Below are positions 31,864 through 34,378 of a stretch of 34,378 nucleotides of DNA, in pieces; the stretch's first letter is position 1, and every line of letters begins with the position of its first letter. Source of the stretch: Verrucomicrobiota bacterium (GTDB taxonomy: Bacteria > Verrucomicrobiota > Kiritimatiellia > SS1-B-03-39 > UBA6053). The stretch covers positions 1-34,378 of the forward strand of contig JAFIGC010000047.1 in the NCBI GenBank assembly GCA_020831635.1, read 5' to 3'. Under the pieces are notes generated by a model. It did no database searches, had not been told where the DNA came from, and saw only the letters and a list, made by a program, of their open reading frames with translations. The position numbers were made by a program, and so were the translations under genes.

Positions 31864-33930
31864 ATGCAAAAATATCCACCTTTCCTTTCTTCTTTTCCGA
31901 AAATGGCCCATGGCGGCGATTACAACCCCGAGCAATGGCTGGAGTCGGTCCCCGATATTCTGGACCAAGATATTCGGTTGATGCGCCTGTCGGGATGCAA
32001 CACCTTCTCGGTCGGGATTTTTTCCTGGGCGAGGTACGAACCGCGGGAAGGGGAGTTTTCATTCGAGTGGATGGACAGAATTCTGGACCGGTTGGCCGCG
32101 GCGGATGTCAATGTGCTCCTTGCCACACCCAGCGCGGCCATGCCCGCTTGGATGCGTCAGAAATATCCGGAAATTTCACGGGTCAATCGTGACGGAGTTC
32201 GTGAATTGCAACCCGGACGCATGGATCATTGCTTTTCCTCGCGGGTGTTTCGTGAAAAGGTCGGGGACATCAACCGGCGGCTCGCCGAACGGTATCGAAC
32301 CCATCCGGCCGTGAAAATGTGGCACATTTCCAATGAATACCAGTCCCTGTGTCACTGTGAGCAATGCGTGGAGGCTTTCCGGGCTTGGCTGCGGACGAAA
32401 TACGGAACCCTGGAAAATCTCAACCGGGCCTGGTGGACGTCGTTTTGGGGGCAGTCGTTTCAGGATTGGGGGGAAATCAATCCCCGCAACCGGGCCTTGG
32501 ACGGATCGAAATTGGACTGGAAGCGCTTCCAGACGGATCAAATCGTGGATTTCCTGAAACACGAAATCGCGGCCCTGCGGGAAGGGGGCGCCACCCAGCC
32601 GGCCACCACCAACATGATGAGCCTTTGGCCCACCGTGAATTTTCAGCGTCTGGCCGATACCGTGGATGTGATCGCCGATGACTGTTATCCGGTATGGAAG
32701 CAAAATGGACGCGACGAGCAAACCGCGGCCAGCATTTCATTCGTGCACGATTTGCGCCGCAGCATGAAAGGCGGACGGCCTTGGGTGTTGATGGAATCCT
32801 GCCCCTCCGTGCCACAATGGCACAACCCGCCGAAACTCAAGCGTCCCGGCATGGCCCGCATGGAAATGATGCAGGCCGTGGCCCACGGTTCGGATGGGGT
32901 GCTGTATTTCCAATGGCGGAAAGGACGCGGCGGACACGAAAAATATCATGGCGCCGTGGTCGATCACGTCGGCCATGAACACACCCGCGTTTTCCGGGAT
33001 GTTTCCGAAATCGGCAACACCCTTGCCAAACTCGACGATCTGGTCGGGACCACCACCCCCGCCGAAGTGGCCTTTGTCTACGATTGGGAGGTCCGCTGGG
33101 CACTGGAGACTTCGGCCGGGGTGTTGAAAGACTCGGCGGTGGAGGACGATGCCTACACCGAAACCGTGAAAGCGCATTATTTCCCCTATTGGAGCATGGG
33201 CGTTCCCGTGGATGTGCTGGAAAGCCGGGCAGAATTTTCAGGATACCGTCTCCTGGTGGCGCCCCGTTTGTATCTGCTCCTTCCGGGGGTGGCCGATGCC
33301 CTGAAAACCTTTGTCGAGAACGGGGGCACCTTGGTGTTGAGCGCTTACTGCGGACAGGTCAACGAAAGCAATTTGTGTTTCACCGGGGGTTGGCCAGGGG
33401 ACGGTTTGCGGGAGTTGTGCGGCATTTGGGTCGAAGAAACCGACCGACTGTTGCCCGAAGACCAGCAAAACCTCACGTTCGCCGATCCGCGATTTCCCGC
33501 GCTACAGGGTGAATGGTCCGCCGGACCCCTTTGCGAGATTCTCCATGCCGAAGGCGCGGAAGTCCTGGCCACCTATGGCGCACAGTTCTATGCGGGAACC
33601 CCGGCATTGACCCGCAACGCGTTTGGAAAGGGCGAGGTGTGGTATCTGGCCACCGATGTGGATCCCGATTTTCTCCTCGGTCTGCACCGCGAATTGAAGA
33701 ATCGTCTGAAACTTAGACAGACCACCGGGACGGATCTGCCTCCGGGCGTGGGCGCCACCTGGCGGACCGACGGGGAAAGCGAATGGGTTTTCCTGCAAAA
33801 CTTTGGCACCGATTCCGTGGAAATTTCCCTGGACTCCCGCCCGCACCGGGATGTGGAAAGCGGCGAGACCGTTTCCTCTCCCCTGCACCTCAAGCCCGTG
33901 GAAACCCGGATTTTGCAGCGAAAAGCGTAA
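31864..33930 (+). CDS. GH42 family beta-galactosidase
   Basis: 688 residues, typical of GH42. It begins with the TIM-barrel part (GGDYNPEQWLESVPDILDQD). The acid/base is E158 in WHISNEY and the nucleophile E311 in VLMESCP. Cys at 123, 163, 165 and 168 (CHCEQC) match the Zn site known in many members. The barrel is followed by a trimerisation domain like a glutamine amidotransferase (about 390-600, with YRLLVAPRLYLLLPG and GGTLVLSAYCG) and a small beta domain. No signal peptide, so cytoplasmic. AAGGGGG precedes the ATG. It removes beta-linked galactose, or a related sugar such as arabinose, from small oligosaccharides, probably under the XylR-like regulator upstream. Confidence 0.93.
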   Translation: MQKYPPFLSSFPKMAHGGDYNPEQWLESVPDILDQDIRLMRLSGCNTFSVGIFSWARYEPREGEFSFEWMDRILDRLAAADVNVLLATPSAAMPAWMRQKYPEISRVNRDGVRELQPGRMDHCFSSRVFREKVGDINRRLAERYRTHPAVKMWHISNEYQSLCHCEQCVEAFRAWLRTKYGTLENLNRAWWTSFWGQSFQDWGEINPRNRALDGSKLDWKRFQTDQIVDFLKHEIAALREGGATQPATTNMMSLWPTVNFQRLADTVDVIADDCYPVWKQNGRDEQTAASISFVHDLRRSMKGGRPWVLMESCPSVPQWHNPPKLKRPGMARMEMMQAVAHGSDGVLYFQWRKGRGGHEKYHGAVVDHVGHEHTRVFRDVSEIGNTLAKLDDLVGTTTPAEVAFVYDWEVRWALETSAGVLKDSAVEDDAYTETVKAHYFPYWSMGVPVDVLESRAEFSGYRLLVAPRLYLLLPGVADALKTFVENGGTLVLSAYCGQVNESNLCFTGGWPGDGLRELCGIWVEETDRLLPEDQQNLTFADPRFPALQGEWSAGPLCEILHAEGAEVLATYGAQFYAGTPALTRNAFGKGEVWYLATDVDPDFLLGLHRELKNRLKLRQTTGTDLPPGVGATWRTDGESEWVFLQNFGTDSVEISLDSRPHRDVESGETVSSPLHLKPVETRILQRKA
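32809..32827. promoter_or_regulatory. Copy of the regulator-upstream dyad inside the GH42 gene
   Basis: GTGCCACAATGGCACAACC matches 18 of 19 bases of 29799-29817 and has a perfect GTGCCA-CAA-TGGCAC dyad. It lies within the codons for VPQWHN after the catalytic nucleophile. It might bind the same regulator; coincidence is possible. Confidence 0.25.
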
Positions 33931-34018
33931 AGGTTGGATTTGTGATCGCGCCACACGCCGCCTTGTGTAAGATCCAGAGGCGTTACCCCTGTATATTTAC
34001 GGAATGGAGGCGGCAAAA

Positions 34019-34063
34019 ATGAAAAGGATTAAAACGTTTTACACCCCTGTAAACACTGCATAA
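34019..34063 (+). CDS. Possible 14-residue leader peptide
   Basis: A short frame MKRIKTFYTPVNTA with GGAGG eight bases before its ATG, a better ribosome site than many full genes here. It covers two palindromes and lies before the exported-protein gene at 34206. It may be a leader peptide, a remnant or chance. Nothing in it resembles an attenuator with repeated amino acids. Confidence 0.2.
   Translation: MKRIKTFYTPVNTA
34031..34053. promoter_or_regulatory. Overlapping palindromes downstream of the GH42 gene
   Basis: AAAACGTTTT (34031-34040), a CG-centred palindrome like LacI-family operators, runs into TTTACA-CCCC-TGTAAA (34038-34053). The word ACCCCTGTA occurs here and at 33985-33993. They lie about 60 bases before the promoter of the exported-protein gene, which suggests transcription control. 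Confidence 0.4.
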
Positions 34064-34110
34064 AACTTATAATGTTTAAGTTTAACTTTTAAATTAGTTT
34101 CATTTTTACC

Positions 34111-34139
34111 TTTACAAAAATACCGATCCTGTGTTTAAT
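34111..34139 (+). promoter_or_regulatory. Sigma-70-type promoter for the exported-protein gene
   Basis: TTTACA (34111-34116) and TTTAAT (34134-34139) are 17 bases apart, each with one mismatch to consensus. The 5' untranslated region would be about 60 bases, containing the AGGAG ribosome site at 34192-34196. Confidence 0.5.
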
Positions 34140-34205
34140 ATTCATAATGCGCACGCTTGTGGCGAATCAATGAAACGAAAAATGACAATGCAGGAGAAAG
34201 TAAAC

Positions 34206-34378
34206 ATGAACGCAAATCATAAACCCTTGAGGGGGGGGGGCATTACATAGATTACACTTGGCTAGCGCCTTCGCCGGTGTTTTTCTCCTCTGCTTTACAC
34301 TCTCCGCAACCGCCCAGTTGCCTCCTCCGGGCGTTTTTCATTCAGTTGATTTTGAAGACACGGATCAAACCGAACTTG
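34206..34378 (+). CDS. Exported protein, N-terminal fragment, out of frame at a G10 run
   Basis: ATG 34206 has AGGAG nine bases upstream. The first nine codons read MNANHKPLR, then ten G (34231-34240) shift the frame to TAG 34248-34250. With nine G the frame continues as LHRLHLASAFAGVFLLCFTLSATAQ, a complete signal peptide, then LPPPGVFHSVDFEDTDQTEL to the window end. The signal peptide is so regular that I take the continuing frame as real. The cause is either a homopolymer sequencing/assembly error or slipped-strand phase variation, with G9 as ON. The mature protein is too short to assign. A sigma-70-like promoter lies at 34111-34139. Confidence 0.55.

Follow-up and report, generated by a model that had tools for sequence, protein, structure and literature searches.

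The window analysed here (34,378 nucleotides) is the complete contig C111 of a draft genome comprising 308 contigs and 6.0 Mb. A poly-G site was observed at the broken 3' end of this contig, 275 bases past the stop of a gene for a GH42 beta-galactosidase. The last ~400 bases belong to a repeat present in five copies, which carries the leader, signal peptide and N-domain of a secreted-protein family. The features are as follows:

31864 to 33930, GH42 beta-galactosidase gene
33978 to 34205, plus strand, A+T-rich leader common to the other copies (84% identity to C72 over 33978-34378)
34192 to 34196, plus strand, AGGAG ribosome-binding site, 9 nt upstream of ATG 34206
34206 to 34250, plus strand, frame as written, 14 codons plus TAG (OFF), product MNANHKPLRGGGIT and stop
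34218 to 34244, plus strand, island HKPL-[R/M]GGG-L
34231 to 34240, plus strand, G10 tract, shifted +1 against the frame of the signal peptide
34242 to 34378, plus strand, +1 frame with the signal peptide and the start of the N-domain QLPPPGVFHSVDFEDTDQTEL, truncated by the contig end
34324 to 34378, plus strand, final 55 bases, which match a stretch of contig C52 exactly (an overlap left by the assembly at a repeat branch, with the tract outside it)

The original prediction, of an ATG at 34206 with a ribosome site and a run of ten G at 34231-34240 whose frame as written stops at 34248, was borne out, with AGGAG upstream of the start and the stop being TAG at 34248-34250. The run had been placed nine codons after the ATG, which was right to within one codon, as the AGG that opens the tract is found 8 codons after the start. 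Past the G10 the +1 frame reads ...GGGALHRLHLASAFAGVFLLCFTLSATA/QLPPPGVFHSVDFEDTDQTEL (LHRLHLASAFAGVFLLCFTLSATA-QLPPPGVFHSVDFEDTDQTEL) and stays open through 34378 (45 codons), with a hydrophobic core and an ATA/Q cleavage-like site when read by eye; the expectation that one G fewer would give a signal peptide and a frame open to the window end thus agreed with what this frame encodes. The run exceeds the length of at least 7 used for a homopolymeric G/C tract within a reading frame (threshold from PMC6321876), and a change of one unit toggles the frame: frame 0 stops at 34248, the +1 frame is open to the contig end where the C111 gene is left incomplete in the assembly, and the C72 copy stays in frame through 227 codons, up to the end of its own contig. 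A translation start downstream of the tract at a TTG (in CAC TTG GCT) was considered and rejected, since this TTG was not kept in the other copies.

The length of the run by itself was not significant, as 42 of 100 dinucleotide shuffles of the window contained a G10 (42%; mean of 0.79 matches). In the 1.08 Mb surveyed of the 6.0 Mb genome we counted 22 G/C runs of at least 9 away from the ends of the sampled pieces, or about 20 per Mb. Because a G10 alone is not rare in this window or genome, the case for the tract rests on its context. What is beyond chance is the relation of the frame to a real signal peptide, as seen through the paralogues, together with the recurrence of the run at matching codons of two paralogues and of another species. 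A genome-wide set of G switches at gene starts was also considered and dropped, most interior tracts being located inside open frames or away from starts. Elsewhere in the same class, one genome (G055) held approximately 560 G/C runs of at least 9 in 3.0 Mb, a density many times that of the other searched genomes.

Besides C111, copies of the repeat were observed in C72, C228 (84% and 87% identity to the window, respectively), C188 and C52, with four of the five located at a contig start or end, as expected since repeats break assembly. The sequence GCAGGAGA followed by ATG was kept in four copies. At the same codons, the tract is G10 in C111 (+1, OFF), G9 plus T in C228 (+1, OFF), G9 in C72 (in frame) and GGGTGGGGG in C188 (in frame at this point). 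The distance from the TTG/CTG codon ahead of the tract as far as ATTACA is 11 bases and in frame in C188 (CGGGTGGGGGC) and C72 (ATGGGGGGGGG), and 12 bases and +1 in C111 (AGGGGGGGGGGC) and C228 (ATGGGGGGGGGT). C188, the copy at the ancestral position, combines an interrupted tract with a separate one-base insertion that shifts the frame after codon 168, and looks like a case of decay. In C111 and C228, the 38-45 codons past the tract contained no extra stop or indel. Copy-to-copy dN/dS past the tract ranged from about 0.14 to 0.6, a small sample of only 38-46 codons, with a value of 0.30 between C111 and C228, both of which are OFF. These values suggest that the signal-peptide frame is under some constraint and may still be used even in the OFF copies. 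In C52 (positions 1-180) the signal-peptide sequence of the family was observed to run straight into the interior of an hsdM-like gene of type I restriction-modification, a junction that could be either an insertion or a chimeric contig end.

The original prediction had proposed a check for G tracts in homologues. Nine Gs were found at the corresponding codons of two paralogues and of one congeneric orthologue, and no G run in the family-level homologues inspected. The congeneric gene, from a second species of the genus (G003), has a G9 tract (CATAAACCTTTGATGGGGGGGGGCTTAC) in frame within an intact gene of 372 codons, and a single copy was found in that genome. It directly precedes the same periplasmic metal-binding-like gene as the C188 copy (a resemblance judged by eye), and we took it as the orthologue of C188 for this reason. 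Between C72 and G003 the island HKPLMGGGL is identical at 9 of 9 amino acids (Fisher p 1.5e-5, for a window chosen after the fact) and 25 of 27 bases, compared with 27% protein identity outside the island, and no other 27 bases of the gene are as well conserved. Identical codons numbered 6 of 8 in the island versus 18 of 53 elsewhere (p 0.035); because this codon-level evidence is weak, the peptide rather than the tract may be what is conserved. Among 116 genomes searched with a degenerate DNA pattern for HKPLMGGG-type peptides, exact matches were confined to this genome and G003. The peptide was rejected as a widespread motif, since the one-mismatch matches beyond the genus read HEPFMGGG with glycine codons that were mostly not GGG. 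The G run was absent from the homologues inspected in four further family genomes (G004, G005, G008, G010), whose leaders differ. With the tract retained by two paralogues and by one further species of the genus, interrupted in C188 and absent at the family level, it seems to be a feature of the genus that is better kept than the rest of the gene. The domain also recurs nearly identically at two contig ends in G005, so that the multi-copy arrangement may be a family trait.

Searches of the domain against Pfam, NCBIfam, Rfam and PDB returned nothing useful, and a structure model of the N-domain (pLDDT 41) was too poor for use. In relatives within the family the N-domain is joined to TSP3_bac and Laminin_G_3 domains, and GLEYA/PA14 matched more weakly. 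A signal peptide and extracellular domains thus occur together in this family, the domains being those of the relatives, as the C111 copy ends before any of them. On this sequence evidence, the proteins are secreted and probably surface-exposed. Four proteins of the family (C188, G003:C77, G005:C48, G005:C12) were also observed to end in FTVYTPLR or FRVFTPLR, with TPLR following an aromatic residue, an ending that might serve in sorting or anchoring.

We consider a slipped-strand ON/OFF switch to be the best single explanation of the site, with a probability of roughly 45% on the basis of the sequence comparisons. The duplicated family encodes secreted, probably cell-surface proteins having a signal peptide, a conserved N-domain and a C-terminal VFTPLR, and in this genus about nine Gs occupy the codons just ahead of the hydrophobic stretch of the signal peptide. 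If the strands slipped in replication, one G would be gained or lost, and each copy would be toggled independently between ON, with the secreted protein made at full length, and OFF, with a short abortive peptide; the C111 copy is OFF as written. We infer that tract length varies from cell to cell and is under selection. In favour of such a switch are the two copies in frame and two copies at +1, all at the same site, the G9 of the second species within its conserved island, the dN/dS values past the tract, the position of the tract outside the 55-base overlap, the domains of the relatives, and the Campylobacter and Akkermansia precedents; counting against it are the decay-like C188, the four family genomes without the tract, the single copy in G003 and the many G runs of this genome that mostly lie off gene starts. 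We regard as rather doubtful, if possible, the fuller reading of an Opa-like contingency family, in which dispersed, secreted, adhesin-like copies would each carry a poly-G switch in the leader, and selection on the tract would maintain them across species of the genus.

The main rival is that the gene has been duplicated repeatedly with most copies decaying, in which case the G run would be a site of frequent mutation and no selected switch, and the C111 copy a fixed pseudogene. This is quite possible given the independent frameshift in C188, the C52 copy broken off beside hsdM sequence, the two of four copies out of frame and the commonness of long G runs (at least 9) in this genome. However, decay does not fit as well with the frames of C111 and C228, which are undamaged past the tract with dN/dS below 1, or with the second species, which keeps the tract in an intact gene. 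The original prediction had posed the choice as phase switch or sequencing error. The G tracts in homologues and the copies in frame and at +1 fit phase variation and weaken a simple sequencing error, but decay of duplicates explains much of the same data. An extra G introduced in error by the assembly or the consensus at a site that is repeated and rich in G, with the true C111 copy in frame, would be in keeping with the end of the contig in a repeat common to C52 and with the artefact-like G/C runs at contig ends of this assembly. We consider such an error unlikely, since the tract and its flanks are C111 sequence beyond the 55-base overlap (the G10 sits 138 bases inside the contig) and C228 is also at +1, through a different sequence. 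The frame could also be restored in expression, at a reduced product level and with the DNA unchanged, if translation or transcription slipped on the G run. Ten identical bases near the start would permit it and the downstream frame seems conserved, but the leader had no Rfam match, no stimulatory element was recognised in it, and slippage cannot be a shared requirement because neither C72 nor the second species needs it to be in frame. We rate this explanation as very improbable.

Compared with known systems, the C111 gene is a candidate simple-sequence-repeat phase-variable gene. Phase-variable tracts in Campylobacter peak at 9 and 10 G, and for poly-G homologues there the tract is interrupted or missing in some and length change has been measured for some loci (PMC6321876). 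The tracts described here are likewise of 9-10 G inside reading frames and are interrupted (C188) or absent (family level) in homologues, but length change is something we infer here, and most G runs in this genome are off gene starts. The Opa genes of Neisseria, as far as the account in PMC3745409 goes, are a multi-locus system with the repeat in signal-peptide codons. Shared with Opa are several copies of a gene for a surface protein that are dispersed in the genome, have a leader-region repeat each and stand in mixed ON and OFF states. The Opa repeat is a pentamer and ours a single-base G run; the family here has five partly assembled copies, with a surface location suggested by the domains of relatives. 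In Akkermansia muciniphila, phase variation through G runs has been proposed from long G runs in capsule genes (PMC3048395). It shares a phylum with the family relatives UBA6053 and UBA6056, and long G runs in genes with phase variation proposed are common to both cases. The genes in question are capsule genes there and a secreted-protein family here, and both cases are proposals.

Most known cases of poly-G phase variation come from host-associated pathogens and commensals. If true, a switchable surface family in several copies in an uncultured bacterium related to Verrucomicrobia would extend this range, and may point to strong pressure on cell-surface variation, e.g. from phages or predators. 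Such genes break draft assemblies and would be under-reported.

At the contig ends of this genome, G/C runs of 15-50 were observed to cluster (C6:1-20, C21:1-20, C12:8932-8951, the C135 end with G50, C139:1-34 and the C207 end). Some of these adjoin a common sequence of 54-55 bases (ACCCCGAGCTACGACCGTCTGCCCC...). The runs may be artefacts of two-colour sequencing, or they may represent a genuine G-rich repeat at which the assembly breaks.
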